From Thelephora terrestris (Eukaryota; Basidiomycota; Agaricomycetes; Thelephorales; Thelephoraceae), in contig WIUZ02000002.1 in assembly GCA_015956445.1 (NCBI GenBank), forward strand, positions 2,418,001-2,482,000: a stretch of DNA of 64,000 nucleotides, given 5' to 3'. The notes under the pieces are model-generated. The model did no database searches and was not told the DNA's origin. It saw only the letters and a program-made list of their open reading frames with translations. Below, piece after piece: positions 2,260 through 50,522 of this stretch; position 1 is the stretch's first letter, and each line of letters starts with the position of its first letter. The position numbers and the translations under genes were made by a program.

Positions 2260-3034
2260 CCGTCCTTCGTTGATTGGCGCTCGTGCACAGCCCAGTAGAG
2301 ACTATCTGTTACGATTTTTTTGAGACCGTCGAAAACAAATGGGATTCAATGAAAATACATGTGACCTGGTTATTTGGGTAACCTCAGCAAAGGTGACTAC
2401 TGCAAATTGAAACAGTCCAATTTCTTGCTACGAAGAACGGAAACATAGTAAAAAGTTTGGGGTATCACCCGCCGTGTGTTTTGTAGCGATCTATACAACC
2501 CCCACACAGAATATATGCAATGCAAGGCAACAGTGGACGGCAGGGGAGGGAAACTTGGGCCTTCCGAGAAAGGAAACCACGCGTGGGTGAAATACCTATA
2601 GCTAAACCTGACCGATTTTAAAAGAGAACCCCCCCCCCCCAAAAAAAAAAATCAAAAATCAAAATCAAACAGAGTCAATATCTCGCGAGTTTTTCCCTCT
2701 TCTTTGGTGTGTATACGTAGTAGGTTTTGAGAATGTGGACATGGTGGACATCAAGGAAGATGATAGTGGGAGTCCCTTGAAGAAGTTTGCGGAGGTAATA
2801 GGGAAATCCAATCTTGGGTAGAGTTGGCCACGCGATTTGGGCGATGAAATGGCAACATAAACGGTGTATTGTATACTGGTTTGGAACGAACGTTCAACAT
2901 AGGGTGACTCTACGCTGGGTACGATCGGCTGCTGCGGCTAGCCTGATCCAAAACTCCGTCTCCGGTACGGTTGGCGAGCAGGGTCAGGCCTATTTTGATG
3001 GCAGGTATCACGGGGTCCTGGGACCCAGTGACAG
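2260..3034. other. Intergenic; homopolymer run
   Basis: No supportable gene. A poly(C) run followed directly by poly(A) lies at about 2630-2651. The rest has only short frames without recognisable content. It ends at the proposed left boundary of the helicase/DUF6589 element. Confidence 0.5.
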
Positions 3035-3053
3035 AGGATCCTAGTAGTCTTGA

Positions 3054-3201
3054 TACAAGCCGTTTGGGAGCAATCTCTCTGCGAGACTCTGCGGCCTCAT
3101 GAAGTAATCGGTCGGAGTTGAATTATTTGATTCGATCATTGAAAATCGGCATTTCGGATCTCATGTGGGGCTGCAGAGAGTTGCTCCCAAACGTCTTGTG
3201 A
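3054..3201. repeat. Inverted repeat (potential hairpin) at the left end, upstream of the helicase
   Basis: CGTTTGGGAGCAA at 3061 is followed by TCTCTCTGC. The complementary arm ends at 3193, with CACAAG-like extensions outside both arms. Arms are about 28-30 nt and nearly perfect, separated by about 90 nt. It lies inside the proposed left terminus and 140 bp before the helicase start. It could be a subterminal transposase-binding or hairpin structure. Confidence 0.65.
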
Positions 3202-3339
3202 ACTCTGTATAGGGGATGGGAGATCACAGTCACACTGGGTGATGTGTTACTGATGGACGAAACCACAGTAACGGCGCTTATGTATTTATTATTTATCTTT
3301 GTTTGTACACTATTACTGGTATCCCCATTTGCACTTTGA

Positions 3340-5923
3340 ATGAGTCGGAACCGGGATCCGGCCATGCACCCAAATCCATTTACAATCCTGGAGGAAGCGC
3401 GCAAATCAAGGAAGGAATACAACTCACACGCAACCAGGGAGGCTCTCACCAACGCCGTAAAACTTGCATTCAATCAAAATACACCCCGCGATTTTCAGCT
3501 TGACATGGCAGAGGCTTTAATCCTCGGCCTTGATGCTACAGTCGTTGCAGGAATGGGGTCTGGCAAGACACTCCCATGGGCTATGCCACTGCTCCTAGGT
3601 GAATATAGCAGCCACAGCTGCATAGTCATCTCACCACTTAAGGCCTTGCAAGCGGATCATGTGAGTTCTCAAAAAATCCGGTGAATGCCCCAACATGTCA
3701 ACTTGTACTAGGCAAAGTTCTTCTCAGCACTCGGACTCGCTGCAACTGCCGTCAACAGTGATACATGGAATGACCCAGTGGTGAAACGTGTAAGCAAGAC
3801 CACCCAATAACATTGTCCCACTAACAATGTTCACAGAACGTCATTGAGAGCAAGTACAGAATCCTCCTTGTGTCACCGGAAATGTGTTTCCGGAGTCCAG
3901 AGTTCTCAGAGCTCTTGCGGAACCCTACATGGGCCAAACAATTTATGTATGTCGTCATTGATGAATGCCATTGTGTCACACAGTGGGGCAAGACATTTCG
4001 GACGACGTACTCAAGCACAGACAAATTACGCTCATTTGTCGCGCCCAGTATCCCATTCCTCATAACATCAGCCACTCTTCCCCCTGCATCTTTCACCGAG
4101 ATTTGTCAACTGCTTGAAATTTCGACCAGCAGTGCATTCCACCTAAATCTAGGGAATGACCGGTCAAATCTCATGCCAATCCTCTGGCCGATGAAAGGTG
4201 CTGCGAAGGACCTCAATTCCCTAAATTTCATTGTCTCTGGGAAAGGCGACTTACCACGGGTTGTTGTGTATGTGAACAAAAAGGACCTTGCACGGATCGG
4301 GTGCGAACACCTTCGAGCCAAAGTTGCACCTGACCAGAGGGACCAAATCGACTTCCTTCATGCGAGTCGTTCAAAGTGGCCACAGAAAAGGATCCTTGAA
4401 CTCTTCCAGAAGGGAGATATAAACATCCTCTTCGCAACTGAGGTTGTGGGGATGGTATGTGAACTGATTGAACTTGTGTGTATAATTAATGACATGTTAC
4501 ACAGGGTACGGATCTCAAAAATGTCACCTTAGTTGTCCAATTCATGGTCCCTGACACACTGTCTGTCTGGATGCAGAGGGCTGGCCGCGCTGGGAGGTCG
4601 GGGTCACCATCTGCTGCAGTCCTCCTCTACGAACCCTCGGTAATTCAAAAGGTGAAGGGTAAATTGGCCGATGAGAGTGATGGTGAAGACGAAGACGGCG
4701 GGGATCTTGAGGAGCGGCTACATGAGGGCGATGATTTCCGGAAGAAGAACGTTGAGAGCAGCCTTCGATCATATGTGTTGACGGAGCAGTGCCGGCGCGT
4801 CGTGACTGATGCATACTTTGGCACACCAGCACGGAATATAGAAGGTATGATCAGTTTCAAGAAAAGTATGCTAACGAGATACTCAACGATGGTGAATTTT
4901 GCAGCGTACACCATCCCATGCTGTGATAACTGCATGAGGGGAGAGAATCCAGATAGCGAGTTCTCTGAAGTGACAGATTTCCTCGAGTTCATGTTTCCCT
5001 CCCTTGAAATCAACGAGCCAACACCTCTGGACACCACGACCAACCCCACCAGCATTGCTAAAGCCATTGGTCCACGGCGCAAGGAACGACGAGCGGCATG
5101 TCGTGACTTCCTAACCAAGTGGCGTGAAGCCTGCTGGCTTAAAAACCATGGCGACGAAGTCTGGGGCCCAGAGGTCCTTCTCTCAGACAAATCTCTCACG
5201 AAACTGGTGGCAACTGCATCCCTACAAACAAAAGAAGATATCAGAGATGAGGTTGAGGGATGGTGGTTCTGGGAAAGGTACGCTCAAGAAGTCCTCGATG
5301 GGCTGAAGGCAATTGATGCACGTTTTGAAGCAGCAAAGGCAGCGAAGGAGGCAGACCGTTTGGAGCTGCAACGAACCGAGAGAGAGAGGCGCGCAGCCAT
5401 CGCATCTGCAGAGAGGCAGCGTGCGTTGGACGAGAAAGAAAGTAAGAGGCTCTTGAAGGAGGAGGTAAAACGTCAGAAGGAAGAGGTAAAGCGCCAGAAG
5501 GACGAGGCAAAGCGTCAAAAGGAAGAGTTGAGACGGCAAAAGAAGGAGCAAAAGGAGGAGGCAAAACGTCACAAGGAGGAGCTGAAACGGAAGAGAGAAG
5601 AGTTGAAACGGGAGAGGGAGGAGTTGAAACAACAGAGCGAGTGTCTGAGGGAGGCAGAGGTAGAGTGCCAACACAACGACAAACGACAGCGCACAGGTTA
5701 CTCTTCGTTCATCCCTATCCCCTCAACTGCACTCCCGGCCACTCTCCTACAACCCAATCCCCCCATCCGCCCCCGGCCACGTCCAACTGGGCGTCTACCT
5801 CCCAACGCCAGCAATGAAAACCTCAATCCTTCCTCAGAACCCATCAGAACCCATCCCATTTCCCCTTTATTTCTACCGCTTACAGGGTCCTACTCCCCCG
5901 AGATGCAAGCGCAGTTTATGTAA
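3340..5923 (+). CDS. RecQ-family ATP-dependent DNA helicase
   Basis: Four exons (3340-3660, 3712-3789, 3837-4454, 4505-5923) give an uninterrupted protein of about 811 residues. The introns are 47-51 nt with GT..AG ends. Helicase motifs appear in order: Walker A GMGSGKT (71-77), Ia SPLKALQADH (near 98), DECH box followed by CVTQWG (175-184), SAT (211-213), FATEVVGMGTD (near 334) and motif VI QRAGRAGR (363-370). A RecQ zinc-binding pattern follows: CRR near 435 and CCDNC at 478-482. The last third holds a very charged coiled coil of KRQKEE-type heptads (roughly 608-735) and a Pro-rich tail. I see no HRDC domain. Such proteins unwind DNA 3'-5'. The gene converges on the DUF6589 gene 223 bp away. 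All key residues are present, so it is probably active. Confidence 0.9.
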
Positions 5924-6146
5924 CCACCACATAGTGTCCCTTATCCCGGCTATCTGACATTTCCAGTAACAACCAATACCCAAGCTGGCACTGGTGGAAC
6001 GGAACGCGCAGGCTTCTCCACAGCAGCAAATCCAAGCAAAGATTCGCCCGGTATGTTAACCTTCTAATGTGAGTGGCTTTTGTAAAATTCGCATCCACAA
6101 GTTGGTTGACACCCCCAAGAATCTACTAGATCTACATATAATTCTT
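5924..6146. other. Spacer between convergent genes
   Basis: 223 bp between the helicase stop and the DUF6589 stop. No open frame with support is seen. It must hold both 3' ends. Confidence 0.6.
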
Positions 6147-8701
6147 CTAATCAAGCGTGTCATCGTTATCGCCCTCCCACATCTCCTTGTCTGAAACATC
6201 TCGCTTTCGACGCGCCTGCCAATTGGGTATCGGCTTCCCGGAATTGACAGCCTTCGAACCCTCGTGAATATAATCTGTGTACTTCAAGTTTTCGCTCAGC
6301 TTCCGCCCCGGCACCCGGCGATGTAATTTTGCTGCTGTATAGGTCCTTTCAAGACGCTTGATGTCATCCTGGTAGTCCGGGTGAGTATGTTTTTGATACC
6401 GCGAGTAGGAGTTCCATTCGTGCTCGAAATGGTCCTTGAGTTTGCGGAATGATGGAATCGCTGCAGATATCTTCGCAATATACCCCCCAGTGATACCAGG
6501 TCCAAACGAAGCGAAGGTGTGCTGCGGATTCTTTAGTTGCTGGTACGAGTCATGCCGCTCCTGCGCCAAATCAATCGGGCAGAACCCATTTTGGTGCCCT
6601 GTAAAGTTAACCAGCCAACAATACCTGCGCACATAATCCCTGGATCCACTGTTTTAGCCGTCGACAAAATGATGGACGAACGCGCATACCTCACTTCTTC
6701 GGTCCACTCGCGATGGAGTCCTTGCAGGAGCTCAAGGACTTCGACAACATACTTGTTGTTGCCGCCACCAATGAACCGGAACAATAATCGAGGCAACATG
6801 TCCTCCATCCTCCCCACATCTCCTACTTTGATCGCCTCATCCAACTCGAAGTAATCCAAGAGGTCCCGATTGAAGCGAATTGTGATGGACAAGAGTTCGT
6901 CGGCGTCGGCGTCCTCATCGGCTTCCGAGTTTCCGAGTTTTACCGTGGCGCCTGTCGAGCCGTATGATTCCCAGATCTCGACCGCAAGGTCATGCAGCTC
7001 AGCTGGCTGCTTCCTCTGCAATTCCTCCAGGTTTTCTACCCCAGCCACCTGTTTCCATACGTCTCGAAAGCGCGCCGCTCCAACGACGAACAAGGCTCCC
7101 TCGAAGGTGTGATGGAATGTGCCTTGTGTCGACGTTGAGTGTAACCCTTTTCTTTGCAGGATGTCAAACGCGTGCGAAAACCCGAGGGCAGCTTTCGGAC
7201 CATAATATTGTGCATGCAATGAGTTTGCGAAGGCCATCTGTAGGTGGAACCAGCCAAACATGGGGACCATCCACGCCATTCGTTCGAAAGTGTTCCAATC
7301 GTGCAAACGTAGGTTTTGCAACCCACGCAACCTTGACACAGTGAGCTGATCTCCAACCCAGACTACAACGCGTTCCTGCCCGACTCGTTTCAGTTCTTCG
7401 GTGCTGCTGAACCCAATACACTTCAACATTGCTGCAACAATTTCGTCGTTTCCCTCGTAAGTTGACTCGTCGATATGGGCCGTTGGAAGCATATATTGAG
7501 TTGTCTTGTGCGCGTCACCCCATTGCAGCTGATTTACAGGAGGCGGAGGTTGCAATATTTCGCTGTCACGGTACTTGTAGTGGCTGAGGTCGAACTCTGG
7601 CGCCTCAAGAAGGAACCGGAGGATCCAATGAATAAATCGAGGTTTCGTCCGTAGATTTGCATCGGAGTTGACTGTGAGTACCGTTCCTCCATCAATTGGT
7701 CGTTCCCTTCCTGCTCTACAACTCTCCCGAAACGTGGCGGCGTCGAGCGTCATCCCCACAGTTTGAGGGAATGTATAGAGAGTGGTTGCCGTCCCATTGT
7801 CGAAATGGCTCTGTCGGGTAGCAGACGGTTCATAAACGCGGAACGGGATGTTCACGTTGTCATGGGAGAGGATGAAGAGCCTCGTTTGAACGTCCAGTGT
7901 GTACTTCTGTTGTGCTGATTGCACGAGGTGGTCGATTCCTGTGAACGCCCACTTCTGGCTCGTTGTCACTCCAAGGCTGGAAAGTGTGTCGAATGCCCTT
8001 GTAGCTAACCCGCATCCTTTTAGGTATAGAGAAAGGAATTTCTGGAAGATATTCGCTCTCCGGTTCCGGCAGAATGCCAGCTGGGAGATCACAAAGGAGA
8101 CGATCTGCATGCCTAATGTAAGGTGTTTCTTCTTCATAGCTCCACTGTTTCTCACCTTCTGAGGGTTGTGTGGATGCTTATTCCTCGATTTCCCCTTTCT
8201 GGTTGTGGAAGAATCAAGGATCTCCCACAGCGTCCCAGCCGCTGGCTTGATCCTGTTGAGCATCTCCTGCTGCGTGATACTGAGCAACATCTCCTCCCCA
8301 AGATCGTCGTCCACCGCGGTAAGCTCAGAGACCACAGAGTCCATCTCGGTATCGACTGCTGCTTTGATGATTGACAGCGCGTGACTCTTCAAGACCGAAC
8401 TTGCTCGGCGGGATCTTTTTTGCAATCGCTCAAGGATCTGCGGTAATTCGCAGGAGTTCACCAGGGCGCTTCGTTCCCTCTTTCCTTTCATGTGAACCAG
8501 CAAATTCTCGTTCCCCCAGCACACTGCATCAAGGAATATCGGGAGATCAAGGCCGACGGTTTCGATGTGGTCGAGGATGGATCCGACCCGAATCGCGATG
8601 GCTTTTGAGTCCCCAGCTGCTACCCGAAACCTTGCTGTATGCTCCCTTATCTTGTGACCCACTTCCGGTTGGTTTTCTGTGGTTTCTTCTATGTCATCCA
8701 T
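6147..8701 (-). CDS. DUF6589 domain-containing protein, possible transposase
   Basis: Two exons (8701-6690 and 6624-6147) around a 65-nt intron give 829 residues with no internal stop. The ATG at 8701 starts MDDIEE; the frame is open further upstream, but without another ATG I would prefer. I recognise the fungal DUF6589 family from the SHDNVNIPFR block (about residue 280), the VVWVGDQLTVSRLRGL block (about 450), the GWFHLQMAFANSLH block after it, and the C-terminal WLVNFTG...PIDLAQE block restored by the intron. The family has no established function. The two acidic blocks (DN, GDQ) could be part of an RNase H-like acidic triad, but that is my inference. It is convergent with the helicase and shares a TIR-like boundary with it. 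Base composition is like its neighbours. Confidence 0.85.
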
Positions 8702-8788
8702 TGTGTGCTGGCAAAGACGATCGATCCCATCAAAAAAGAATTCGAGCGATGATAAATAAAATGTTTTGGTAATATTTTGTGCGATCAA

Positions 8789-8806
8789 TGGGGGGTTAGG
8801 GTTAAC
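8789..8806. other. Telomere-like motif upstream of the DUF6589 gene
   Basis: The plus strand reads a G run, then TTAGGG, then TTAACC, about 90 bp upstream of the DUF6589 start. This is only about one and a half copies of the usual fungal telomere unit TTAGGG, so chance is quite possible. Confidence 0.4.
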
Positions 8807-8854
8807 CTTTTATGGACCTCGTGACTGTGACGTTGCCCTCCCTATACATAGTTC

Positions 8855-8927
8855 ACCAGACGTTCTAGGACTGATCGATGCAGCACCGGCAAGCATTTAA
8901 AACTCAGATTGTCCTAGATCGTCTGGT
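8855..8927. repeat. Inverted repeat at the right end, upstream of the DUF6589 gene
   Basis: ACCAGACGTTCTAGGAC (8855-8871) and its complement at 8911-8927 match at 16 of 17 positions, with a 39-nt loop. It mirrors the inverted repeat upstream of the helicase and lies just inside the proposed right terminus. Confidence 0.65.
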
Positions 8928-8960
8928 TCGAGACTAGGATCCTAGAGGATCACGCTGGAC

Positions 8961-18653: not shown

Positions 18654-21600
18654 ATGCCTCGTGTGCTCAAAGGGAAGTCCAAGCAAAAGTCCAAGCAATA
18701 CCGGGCTCCATGTGGATGTGGATGCGGGTCGATGTCCCCCGCAACTATTGCTGCCCATGGGAAAGTCGTCACCAAGAAGGCGAACATCAATTCTCTAGCC
18801 ATCGCCCGCTCCATCGCCCGCCTCACCGGCTCCTCGACGTCCCGTTTGGTTCCCACAAAACACCACTCTCGCCGAACAGCGAACCATTTTGACCCGCCTG
18901 TTGAAGATCACATCGCTGGGGACCATGCCGATGAAGATGCAATGGACACGGACCTCCTGCAAGCAAGTGGATGTAGCAATCCTTCTCCCCCTCTCACCCA
19001 TGTGTGGGCCAGTCGTGCAAGTCGACGCGAGCGTGAAGATGAGGACCTGGTCTCTGAACCAGGTTCGCCTGAGCTATCGGAGGAAGAAAGCGAGGCCGGG
19101 AACGAGAGAGATCCACACCCCAATGAACCCGAGTTCCTGAGCGATGATGAAGAACCTCAAGTCCACGCTGAAATCTCGGCAACAGAGCAGCTTACTGCTG
19201 GTTTCCAAGTTCGTGCCACAATAGCCGGTATGTCTTGCTCAACGGTCATCTCCCACTGTGGGAACTGACGCTACTCGCGCGTCACCCTGATTTTCTGCTC
19301 AGCTCAGGAGCATTTGGACCCAGATGACCTCAATGCCATCTGTGCTTTCAACTACCACATCACGAAATCGACGACCAGAGATGCGTTCAACAGCCTACGA
19401 CACGCCTTCCCCACCCAACTACAAAACATCCCATCGCTGTATGAAACCCAGCGGCGGGTTGCCGAGCTCTCCGGCTTGAAGCCAGAGTATTCAGATTGCT
19501 GCATAAGAAGCTGCTGTTGCTTCACAGGCTCATACAAAAACCTGGACAGTTGCCCGTTCCCCGATTGTAAAGAGCCTCGTTATGACGAATCTGGAAAACC
19601 CCGGATGCAATTCCAACATCTCCCTGTAGGCCCTCGCCTTCAAGCAATGTTCCTCAACAAGGACGCCATCGAGTTGCTGGACTATCGAACCACCCGCACG
19701 CCAGGCGAACGGACCAACTCGGTATCTGACATATTTGATGGGAAGCTCTACCGTGAGCTCTGCGGAAAGTTCGTTCGGGTGGACGGCCAGACATTCGACC
19801 ACAAGTACTTTGAAGACAAACACGATATTGCTTCGGTCTATCTCTTGATGGCTTCCCCATTTTTAACAAGAGGAACCTCTCTGCATGGCCGGTAATTTTG
19901 ATCAACTTCAGCCTTCCTCCCGACATCCGAACCCACCTCGTCCACTTGTTGTGTTACGGAGTTATCCCGTCACCAAAAGCTGTCAAAGACATGGACTCAT
20001 TCCTCTATCCACTCTACTGTGAGCTCGAAAAGCTCGCACGAGGCATCACGAGCTTGGATCTTCGTTCGAGGGACCTGTTCCTCCTTCGTGCATTCCTCAT
20101 CCTCATCTTCGGAGACATGCCAGCCATCGCAAAGGTCATGCGGATGAAAGGCCACAATGGTTTTTGCCCCTGTCGCTTCTGCGAAATCTGCGGAGTTCGT
20201 TACCCTACAGGAAGTGTTTATTACGTCCCGCTTGCACGATTCGATGGAGAAGCATCTTACGACGCCAAAGCCCTGAAAAAACGGACCCACCAACGGTTTC
20301 TTGACCAGGCAGAAGAAGTGATCATGGCCCAGACGAATGCTGAAGAGGACAGGCTCTCCATGGAATATGGGATCAAGGGGGTCCCGCTCCTCTCGCTCAT
20401 CGGCACGGTCACACTTCCACTTTCCTTTCCACTCGACTTCATGCACCTCATCTTCGAAAATCTCGTTCCAAATCTCGTGGCACACTACACTGGAAATTTC
20501 AAAGGTCTCGACGATGGCACCGAGGATTACATCATTCCGGCCCACATATGGTCTGAGATCTGTGAAATTGGCTTTTCATCAGGCAACACTATCCCCTCGC
20601 AGTTCGGAGCAAGAGTGCCACATCTTGAGAAGCAACGTTCGTACATGACAGCCGAGGCGTGGTCTTTCTGGGTATCGTTCATCGCCCCGATCGTTCTCCG
20701 CAACCGCTTTACGAAACTTCGATATTACACACACTTCATGAAACTCGTTCACTTGATCCACCTTTGTCTTGCCTATGATATGAAGGCAAGTGACATTGAA
20801 GCAATCCGGGTCGGTTTCCAGGAGTGGGTCGTGGAATATGAAAAGTTCGTGCAGTCCATTCTGATCACATGTGTTTTCAACAACCAACATTGCCCATCCT
20901 TACCACAGAATCTTCTATCAATGTGACCCAGAGAGGATTTCAACATGCCCAGTCACACTCCACTCCTTGCTCCACGTCGCTGATGGGATTGAGGCTGCTG
21001 GCCCAGTTTGGACATATTGGTCGTTCGTCATGGAACGATTCTGTGGGTTCCTCAAACGTGATGGTGTTCGGAGCCGGCGGAAACCCTATGCAAGCCTTGA
21101 CAACCGTGTCCGACATGTCGCTCAACTCCATAATACGAAGATCCGGTACAATTTGGTTGATCTCTTGTCACTGACAGGGCCTACTAGAGAGGGCGGAGAA
21201 GTGTTCCCAGAGCGTGCGTACCAGTCATTCCTAGCTTCTCCCATTTACAGTAACACTGCTTGATAGACCCTCAACGGGTATTCATGCAACCTCGGCGGAT
21301 GTTGAAGCTGGATGAAAATGTTCGTGCAAAACTTACGATGGCGCTCATCACAAGGTTTTCTCCGCTCAAGGGTCCCAAAATCCCTTCCTTTGTTGCCAAG
21401 AAGTATGTTCCCACCGGAGATGTCCTCCAATGGGGATGGGTTAAGATTTCAGAAGGTGGGGACAAGATGTGTTGTCATGCGATGATCAAGCCAGAATCAC
21501 TTGGCCGTGATTGCACATACATTCGGGTGTGGTTCACCAAAATCAATGTTTAAATTTTGCCACCTAATGTAATTACTTTCTTACAGTACGAGGCAACCGT

Positions 21601-46679: not shown

Positions 46680-49600
46680 CTAGAATGCTATTTCGAATGC
46701 ATGATGATCAATATACTTGTTGACATAGAAGGACTGGAAGACGTCCAGCGTTTGGGTGTAGTTAATCTCCCTGTACACCCGGGAGTTTGAGGGAAACCGG
46801 GGGAGCAAATGGGCACCACGAATGATAGAGTCTAGGTGGATGATAGCCATGCTCCGACGGCGGCGACCAATGGTGTACTCGGGTTCAACAACCCATAACC
46901 CGGTGGAACTATCGGGGCTGGTTCCAACTGTAGTATACCAGTGCACGAGGGCACATGGGTACTCCACACCGGCATACGAGAACCTAAAAAAGAGGTAAAC
47001 ACGAGCTACAAGAAGGCCTTGCATTCCAGGTGCATCTGATTCTCCGCTGTCGACGAAGACACAGTCTCTTCGTGGCCCGCTGACATCTCCCCTCGTCCAC
47101 CATGGTGTAGAGCGGATGACCTCCCTATACATTCCTCCTGGCCCAGACGGGTTGCTGGGGGCACGGAAGGTGGCAGTTGCGGAGTGGAATACAGAAACTC
47201 TCAAATCCCATACCATCGGGCAATACTCGAGAGGGAGGTCAATTGGATCAATGTCGGAATCAGGATGGACCTGATAAAACAGGAAGTGTTGTACAAGGGC
47301 GGGTAGGTCGTGTTGGCCAATCTTGACTCCAAGGGCTGTGAAGGTCGGCGGGTATTTGCGAGTGGGAGCTAATTGGATGGCTGTAAGAATGCAGTAGATA
47401 ATGGACAAATAATACTGACCTTTTTCTTGTGCGAGCCGTACTTCATTCATCAGAGCCTCAGTTTCAACTGGTCCGGCATCGTCATCTTCGTTGTCACGAT
47501 CTCCATCAGCGTTATCGTTGTGGCCGTCGTCATCATCGTTGTGGTTGTCGTCATCACCACTGTCACAGGTGTCGTTGTCGTTGATGTTGTTGTTGTGATC
47601 ATTGTGGAGGGAGTTGAGGATTGCAGCAACGAGGGTTGAATTGGTGAGCATTCCCCGGGCATTGAAGTCAGCCCTAGCGGCCGTGAGCTTGTCCAGCCTC
47701 TCGTTCACTTTGAGGATTTGCGAGAGGGCCTTGTAGCGGTTTGAACGGCGCCACGGGCGTTTGACTGCCGTGATATGCTTTGACTCTGTTATGGATGAGC
47801 AGAGACCATTGGGTGAACCAAAATTCTTGATGTTATTGTAGTAGTGGACCATCGAGTGTTGACGGGGAAGCGAGAACCCAGAGAGGCCATCATCCCGGAC
47901 AGTCCCAGAAAAGACAAGGCGATGTTGGTGAAAGCGTTGAAGGGCAGCCTTGAGCTCGTTGAGTGCATCTTCAGTGATGACATTTTGACGGGCAATGTAA
48001 CAAAATTCGAGAAATGCAGCAAAAGTCCTGATGATATCACGAGGGACAAACCCCTCGATAGCGTTCAGATAAACCTAAGTGAGAGCGTTAGCACATAATT
48101 TAGTTTGGCGCTGACTGTGGCATACCTTCATCAGAGCCTTTGAGTCGTCCCCAGTCCATTGACTGAAATTCCTCCCCTGTTTGAATCGACGCAGGCCAGG
48201 AAATGGAGGTGCAAGGGCAATTCTGCTGAGGAATGAGCACATGTCATGGATGATGAGTTAACCACTTACCGGCGGTCAATTTCATCAAGCACTCGTTGCA
48301 TGCCGGCGGTACTATGGCAGTATTCAAGGTATTTTGACACCCAATTGACGAGGTGGTCCATAAACACTCCCTTGATGACTTGATGGAGTAGGTCGGACGT
48401 GATGAGCTCATGTATGTCTGCTCTGGGGAAATGCATTGTGTATGGCTAAAAAAAACTCAGCTAGTGTCGTACGACATGCTAGGAATATTCTACCTTTGGA
48501 TCAGGAGCAATGCCGTAAACTGCTCGCAAGACGTCTTCGGTGTGCATGCTAACTAGGACAGCCGTGTGGTCTGCAGTCCGCAACCGACAGGGAGCGTCAA
48601 GGGAGTCTGGAAAGCCGTGGCACCTTCGAGGATTCAGAGGACATTCTCAGAGAACGAGGAAGCAGTACTTACGTAGGACACCAATTCATCAAAATCCATG
48701 CTATTATTGACTGCTCCGGATAATCAGATATATGTGGGCCAAGGCCGTACAGTACCCGACGAAGGTATTGATCAGCACACCGGACAAGATCCGGGTTTGT
48801 TGTCATGAACGGCTTAAGGGGGAGGAGGATATTTGCAATCGAGTCGTGGGTTAGCAGCCGTTTGAATAGGCGGAACTCCTCTGTGTCAGTGTCTTTCCTG
48901 GCACCTGATGCGAATGTGAGCATCGGTTCAAAGAAACGTAAGAGTGTTACCTTTCGGGATGGGAAGGAAGCCAATCACCACAAGAGCGTTCTTGTGGGCT
49001 CTTCTCATGTGATTTTGAATGTTTCCAATCGAAAGATAGAGGGGGTAGTATTCGTTTTGACCGGTCGCAACAGAAACAGTTGTTTTGTCCGATCCAAGAA
49101 TGATCGGCACAAACATTGAGCCATGTGTGGAGGGGTCCTGAGCTATTGTATCCTGTCCTGCGGTGAGCAACAGTGGTGTGTCTGTGAAATATGACATTAC
49201 CGATTGGCGCCATGTCCAGTCACCTGACATCATGTTGGAATACTGGCGTTGAGAACCGTTGAACTCTTGATAGGCGGAGTAGTCAATATGGCCGTCAAAC
49301 TCTGGGTTGCCAAGAATACCCTTGATAACATCACGAGGGTTGCGGAACCAGACTTCGTACTCCTCGGTCTTCCATTCTGGAGTGTGTGTGGTTTCACATG
49401 ACGGACCGTCGTAACTCAGAGAGAAGCTTTCCCAAGGAACACTTCCAAGTGGTATCGAGTCAACTTTGCGCAGCAGATCCATGTAGTCACGTATTGGTGG
49501 TGCGGCGCCATGAGGGACCAAGCTCGCAGCCCATAGTTCAAGCAACCGGTCTGCTTTCTTCCTTGACAGTTCTGCTTCAGTGAAGATGAAGTCGGCAAGT

Positions 49601-49980
49601 TCGAAGCTGACACGCGAGTCGAACGGGGTCCAATCGGTTTCTGACCGGGTCGTTGGTGAAATTGGGGGTTCCTCTGAGGCGATGAATTCCCCATGCTCGT
49701 TACATCGCTTCGCTATTTCAACATGAGGGCTTAGTGAGTCACAGAAAAATCCTGGAGAAATTGCACCCGCACCGGTGAGAGTAGGGTGGTACGTCCGCCG
49801 AAGTTCGGTGACTGGGATGTCAAGTCCCGGGTGGTATTGATGGATAGCACGAAAATGACGCTTCAGACCGCTTCTGTTTCGGAACCTGCGGTTGCACTCA
49901 GTACACGGAATCATTGGCGATGGTGATGTTTGGATCGAGAAGGGGGGTATTTGTAGGGACTGGCGGGTAAACTTTGACAT
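46680..49980 (-). CDS. Plavaka-type (CACTA-like) transposase
   Basis: Start about 49980 (MSKFTRQSLQ). A C2H2 zinc finger comes first (CTECNRRF and H..H near 49890). Then come NEHGEFIASEEPP, FDSRVSFELADFIFTEAELS, KVDSIPLGSVPWESFSLSY, YEVWFRNPRDVIKGILGNPEF, MSGDWTWRQS and the core GSMFVPIILGSDKTTVSVATGQ with YYPLYLSIGNIQNHMRRAHK. After introns: DIHELITSDLLHQVIKGVFM, RQHSMVHYYNNIKNFGSPNG, ITESKHITAVKRPWRR, and an Asp/Asn low-complexity stretch (about 47600-47480). It ends at 46680. These are the signature blocks of basidiomycete Plavaka transposases. I saw no frame break that splicing does not explain. It is divergent from the companion gene at 50523. Confidence 0.85.
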
Positions 49981-50239
49981 ACCTGTGCATTCGAGAGTGT
50001 CTGGATGAGTGGGGATGGTGAAAGATGGCCCGGGGATGGCGATAGATGGCCCGGGGAACATGTGGTTCCATCCAAACGGTGATTGAATGATGAGGTGGCT
50101 CACCACCAGCGCTGGGCCCCAGTGATGGCATATGCAGGTTGCTTGACGTCGGAAGCGTAGGCGAGTTAGAGAAGGAGCAGTAGTCTGAGGGAGTTGGTGG
50201 ACAAATTGCCTCAGAGCGACAAGATGACGTGGCAGCACG

Positions 50240-50522
50240 AAGTGAAGCCAGACACATGTCGGTCACAGCGTGATGGACATAGCGAAGCAAGACACATGTT
50301 GGTCACGGCGTGACAACAAACGTGGACTTGGTGATTTTGTCCGTCTCAGTCGTCTTCGAGGACCCCCGGGGTCCGCTGAAAGTGCTTCGGCTCTACCTAC
50401 CCCTTGGTTTTTTCTATATATACTCACAACGGTATGTCAGCTATCCTTAACAGACCCTTTTTTCTTCTATCTATTTCCCTCACTGTCGCACTCTCACAAT
50501 CGTTTTACTCTACTCGCTCGCC
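50240..50522. promoter_or_regulatory. Bidirectional promoter region of the Plavaka pair
   Basis: The region between the two divergent genes has a TATA-like TATATATACTCAC at about 50415 and long pyrimidine tracts before the plus-strand start at 50523. It probably drives the companion gene and may serve both. Confidence 0.4.

Follow-up and report, generated by a model that had tools for sequence, protein, structure and literature searches.

The described transposons that most resemble the element reported here are those of AcademH, a lineage of Academ presented as carrying a helicase and generating target-site duplications of 9 or 10 bp (PMC10045372), and as occurring at low copy number in Basidiomycota, Ascomycota and Mucoromycota (PMC10799480). 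Later papers attribute the original description of AcademH to Kojima 2020 and an Academ profile to Muszewska 2017. In AcademX, a nuclease takes the place of the helicase and the duplications measure 3–4 bp (PMC10045372), and putative nonautonomous Academ elements are reported as widespread in Marasmius oreades (PMC8290104). A RecQ helicase is also reported from KolobokH, a fungal transposon lineage (PMC9587614). Here we describe a transposon that contains a RecQ-family helicase gene and a gene for a DUF6589 protein (PF20231), located in a 64,000-nucleotide stretch (C12:2418001-2482000; the window) of the 40.6-Mb genome of Thelephora terrestris. An earlier note on this DNA had proposed a transposon made of these two genes, and copies with shared borders and the recurrence of the gene pair elsewhere bear this out. 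The note had also thought the element possibly undescribed, which as to its kind is not supported, since helicase-bearing transposons with duplications of 9–10 bp have, by the published description, already been named AcademH. Most probably the element represents a new family within AcademH, and so a known kind of transposon rather than a new one.

Borders, target-site duplications and copies of the element

The element spans positions 3045–8936 of the window (5,892 bp) and reads TAGTCT...AGACTA. Its borders are common to internally deleted copies on C5 and to diverged copies, and matches to other copies in the genome start and stop at the predicted positions to within one base; similarity running past the borders, which had been set beforehand as a sign against a transposon, was not seen. 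The borders given earlier, 3046 and 8935, were right to one base. The outermost bases of the inverted ends are identical at 6/6 positions, then at 12/15, and at 22/31 with one gap, close to the 21 of 31 previously counted by eye. AGGATCCTAG flanks the element on both sides and has three matches in the window (mean 0.12 in 100 shuffles), the third being a reverse complement that overlaps the right copy. A repeat does stand on both sides, as the earlier note had it, but flank comparison gives a duplication, GGATCCTAG, of 9 bp (3036–3044 and 8937–8945) rather than 10, the tenth base being the terminal A of the element.

The length of the duplication was examined in seven copies. At 9 bp the two flanks show 0, 0, 1, 0, 0, 0 and 0 mismatches, compared to 4 to 8 at 8 bp and 6 to 9 at 10 bp, so that six of the seven copies have an exact duplication and the seventh agrees at 8/9 positions. 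When these flanks were compared at displaced positions, an exact 9-mer occurred 8 times in 45,920. The duplicated sequences vary: GGATCCTAG in the window, GGGACAGTC at C12:1.73M, GTTCTAGCG at C4:718k, GACCTACGG/GACCTATGG at C4:97k, ATGATCTGC on C56, ATTTTTATA at a full-length C45 element with both genes, and GCCTCGAGG at a 206-bp copy found in two places with identical flank. The printed flanks of the C3 and C6 copies, which are shorter matches, gave no clean duplication.

Full-length copies carrying both genes were found at two places (window and C45), and diverged copies with both ends lie on C12, C4 (two) and C56. Internally deleted copies span 0.2–1.24 kb. A genome search with the window region retrieved two such 1.24-kb copies on C5 (C5:1146939-1153866; L035:940-2182 and L036:1124-2367) that are 98.5–99.4% identical to it and have the same end bases. 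Near-identical deleted relatives of a full copy are a sign of recent activity, and the element was probably active recently; a full copy accompanied by such relatives is thereby supplied for a DUF6589/RecQ transposon. The two C5 copies stand in opposite orientation about 4.4 kb apart. The 9-bp flanks within each copy differ at 4/9 positions, and the left flank of either copy is the same as the right flank of its partner (GAACACAGG and TCATACATG). This arrangement probably arose from two normal insertions followed by inversion of the intervening 4.4 kb through recombination between the copies. A U6 small nuclear RNA gene (L036:953-1068) lies about 55 bp from the C5 copies and a transfer RNA (tRNA) gene (L035:2372-2451) about 190 bp away. 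A preference for insertion near RNA polymerase III genes was considered and rejected, as ten other sources gave no Rfam match and the window contains no tRNA.

The gene pair and its placement among known transposons

Both genes are present, open and convergent between the inverted ends, as proposed earlier. The helicase gene lies on the forward strand at 3340–5923 (exons 3340–3660, 3712–3789, 3837–4454, 4505–4844 and 4905–5923; 791 aa modelled); omission of the fourth intron leaves the frame open and gives 811 aa. The protein matches the Pfam families DEAD and Helicase_C, its best matches among PDB sequences are RecQ and Bloom syndrome helicases, and part of its charged tail is encoded by imperfect repeats at 5435–5651, mostly at 21-bp spacing. 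The DUF6589 gene lies on the reverse strand at 8701–6147 (exons 8701–6690 and 6624–6147; 829 aa modelled), and an NCBI version of its protein (P0001, 817 aa) is 97% identical.

DUF6589 is listed as a family of unknown function in many mushroom genomes, and its name was not found in the literature searched. In a Pfam scan (E up to 0.1) it was the sole family in the two transposase open reading frames (ORFs), and a comparison of the DUF6589 profile with PDB sequences (E up to 1) brought up neither P element nor Hermes. For the AlphaFold2 model of P0001, the closest folds among the matches listed are DDE transposases (P element, Hermes, Transib and RAG1), families missing from those matches not being thereby excluded. 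The predicted fold has an RNase H-like core into which a helical domain is inserted ahead of the last acidic residue. Model and fold comparison favor the DDE type, and DUF6589 is likely a DDE-type transposase. Sequence conservation also enters into this prediction, and the acidic residues on which catalysis would depend are D264, D434 and E681. The family thereby gains a likely function and a predicted structural place beside the transposases of the P element and hAT.

In the T. terrestris genome DUF6589 occurs at seven loci (15 matches, which we grouped), to which a protein search adds a short C8 fragment. Three of the loci also have a helicase of this type: the window, C45, and a broken copy on C59 (L045:3251-4297 and L044:2282-2839), in which about 3.3 kb interrupts the DUF6589 gene. 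The stretches examined at the DUF6589 loci on C59, C34, C16, C12:1.76M and C5:3k held no TA..TA ends with a 9-bp duplication. The two genes are not adjacent in this fungus alone, a possibility that had been set as a test beforehand. Consecutive locus tags pair them in Agrocybe chaxingu (NLJ89_g10340/g10341), Trametes cubensis (ONZ51_g5810/g5811) and Paxillus involutus (PAXINDRAFT_12088/12087), and short contigs apparently carry both proteins in Agrocybe pediades (5.3 kb) and for the A. chaxingu pair (6.3 kb); on a third, of 7.7 kb, both proteins were assigned by size agreement alone. A wider count set 100 of 169 DUF6589 matches (every one with a named organism apart from P0113, for which there is no contig, and some of the others) against 105 of the 120 helicase matches listed, the last 15 being dropped, out of 2416 within the cut-off. 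In it, 23 of the 100 DUF6589 entries apparently share a contig with a helicase match (21 contigs, from 18 named species plus one), where contigs were assigned by length and organism label instead of coordinates and a shared megabase contig does not amount to adjacency. Two of the 23 come from this genome, one (P0169) lacks the DUF6589 label, and one was assigned by size agreement alone. An alignment search for animal or XPG-bearing DUF6589 proteins yielded 86 matches (8000 candidates scored); all those with a named organism are fungal, and the Pfam annotation of the 86 includes no XPG family.

Taken together, we consider it very probable that the element is an AcademH-type DNA transposon that moves by cut and paste, with DUF6589 as its DDE-type transposase. 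It is filed there because of its helicase, duplication length and host range, AcademH being compared by its published description only. In that description AcademH carries a helicase, as does this element with its RecQ-family gene at 3340–5923; it makes duplications of 9 or 10 bp, here 9 bp (exact in 6/7 copies, one mismatch in 1/7); and it is known from Basidiomycota, as here. The features compared, namely helicase, duplication length and host range, show no difference.

Other placements fit the observations less well. A XPG nuclease is the other hallmark of Academ, that of AcademX, which was rejected on the 9-bp duplication and on the lack of an XPG domain in the five ORFs scanned. The five XPG_I matches in the genome all lie away from DUF6589 loci. 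This last result, the silence of the searched literature on DUF6589, and the closeness of the predicted fold to P element and Hermes among the matches listed would also suit a new superfamily, akin to the P/hAT-type transposases, which would have acquired its RecQ helicase and 9-bp stagger independently of Academ. We regard such an origin as unlikely, since helicase and 9–10-bp duplications already mark AcademH in fungi, as published, and a second lineage of that description is less to be expected. The P element and hAT transposons (Hermes) resemble the DUF6589 protein in its predicted fold, an RNase H-like core that a helical insertion interrupts ahead of the last acidic residue, but they make 8-bp duplications and are not known to carry a helicase, whereas the seven copies here give 4 to 8 mismatches at 8 bp.

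KolobokH, like this element, is a fungal DNA transposon with a RecQ helicase. Kolobok elements insert at TTAA, whereas the duplications here are 9 bp of varied sequence, which makes membership in KolobokH highly improbable. Immobility, with two host genes caught between chance repeats, deserves still less credence: full-length copies with both genes number only two, plus the broken pair on C59, yet copies that share these ends, and show 9-bp duplications and internal deletions, are dispersed on several contigs, which already refutes it. Mutator-like elements were discarded as well, the transposase domain PF10551 being absent from the two transposase ORFs, which match only DUF6589 at E up to 0.1. 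The KDZ transposons (Kyakuja, Dileera and Zisupton) are likewise large elements of Agaricomycetes. The published description of two Kyakuja families gives 7-bp duplications, CA..TG termini and no terminal inverted repeats (PMC12730594); Kyakuja was rejected on the 9-bp duplication and the TAGTCT..AGACTA ends found here.

Hairpin ends and a proposed mechanism

Each end of the element contains a hairpin. The left end (3045–3215, forward strand) reads TAGTCTTGAT, a hairpin with 17-nt arms, then GAACTCTGTATAGGGG; its arms (3055–3071 and 3183–3199) pair at 16/17 positions around a loop of 111 nt (fold z -6.0). Read inward on the reverse strand, the right end (8839–8936) runs TAGTCTCGA, a 17-nt-arm hairpin (16/17 paired, loop 39 nt), then GAACTATGTATAGGGA (fold z -6.4). 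The copies follow a common plan of TAGTCTNG, one or two bases, a 17-nt arm, a loop (96–111 nt left, 35–46 nt right), the complementary arm, and a motif near GAACTNTGTATAGGG. Left and right arms are different sequences.

The arms covary between copies. Over 12 distinct ends (16 ends reduced to distinct rows, the C3 and C6 copies, which lack the inner motif, being omitted), Watson-Crick pairing is 85%, compared to 65% on average after shuffling of whole 3' arms, with the register of the arms fixed by side and that of the C56 right end set by hand. None of 2000 pooled shuffles reached the observed pairing, a test that benefits from left and right arms being unlike each other. Permuted separately, left ends reached it in 8/5040 and right ends in 2/120 cases; all of these shuffles leave the kinship of the copies in place. 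In single-strand folding, 6/7 hairpins have z of -3.8 to -8.9 against 200 dinucleotide shuffles, and the C56 right-end hairpin has z of -1.7, with 12/200 shuffles equally good.

Two explanations of the covarying arms can be set against each other. Correction of quasi-palindromes is a known mutational process, and it is possible, though short of an even chance, that replication slippage keeps the arms matched by correcting imperfect palindromes while the structure itself goes unused. In agreement with this, just 11/17 positions pair in the fixed register at the left end of C5a and at the right end of C56. Layout, arm length and position, on the other hand, are kept at both ends of strongly diverged copies, and the left arms have another sequence than the right ones; both points argue against slippage. 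A more speculative and rather unlikely explanation is that the ends are partly recognized as structures: RecQ would open the end, the strand would fold into the hairpin, and the DUF6589 transposase would read it. If true, this would be helicase-assisted, structure-guided DDE transposition and would explain why the helicase is retained in this lineage. Covarying hairpin ends beside a RecQ helicase, along with a predicted function and fold for DUF6589, are what this element adds to existing knowledge; the conservation of such hairpin ends next to the helicase makes it testable why some DNA transposons carry a helicase.

We hypothesize that the DUF6589 transposase, whose modelled RNase H-like core is divided by a helical domain like those of the P element, hAT, Transib and RAG1, binds the TAGTCT ends together with the neighboring palindromic hairpin arms. 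It would excise the element and join it to the target with a 9-nt stagger, which would produce the 9-bp duplications. The RecQ helicase may assist at the ends or in gap repair, and the internally deleted copies (0.2–1.24 kb) could be mobilized in trans.

Target site and other repeats

The target site in the window (left half 3030–3044, right flank 8937–8960) reads GTGACAGAGGATC-CTA-GAGGATCACG once one duplication is removed. A short stretch of this left flank recurs free of the element on C15 and C45, where it reads GTGACAGAGGATCAC, and the window site is 10 bp longer. The paralogous C15 site is identical at 78/93 positions, and L050:730-830 belongs to the same comparison. One reading of the 10 extra bases is a repeat of the target, separated from the first copy by CTA, the three bases with which such an element ends. 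The window site may therefore be an older excision footprint that the present element later re-entered, a reading drawn from a single case and from paralogous sites; alternatively, the extra 10 bp are a small tandem duplication.

A genome-wide search for the end pattern returned 45 matches, compared to 4 for a reversed control. Nineteen contain the initial 17 bases of a dispersed 79-bp repeat and six contain another 17-mer. Two of these six were examined and are 94% alike from upstream of the match onwards; because their likeness begins before the match, they do not start at the pattern. Ten end-pattern stretches were examined for a 9-bp duplication, which appeared in two; these hold one and the same 206-bp copy, and their flank is identical. 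The 79-bp repeat (L057:57-135 and at least about 30 further places) starts TAGTCTGGAATCCAGCC, and its first bases resemble the element ends; in the nearest 1.1 kb or so, no AGACTA end was seen together with a 9-bp duplication. Other transposase genes of the window, Transposase_21 and Plavaka, lie at 19814–20926 and 48928–50262, and a Plavaka fragment adjoins the C45 element (L043:839-1321).
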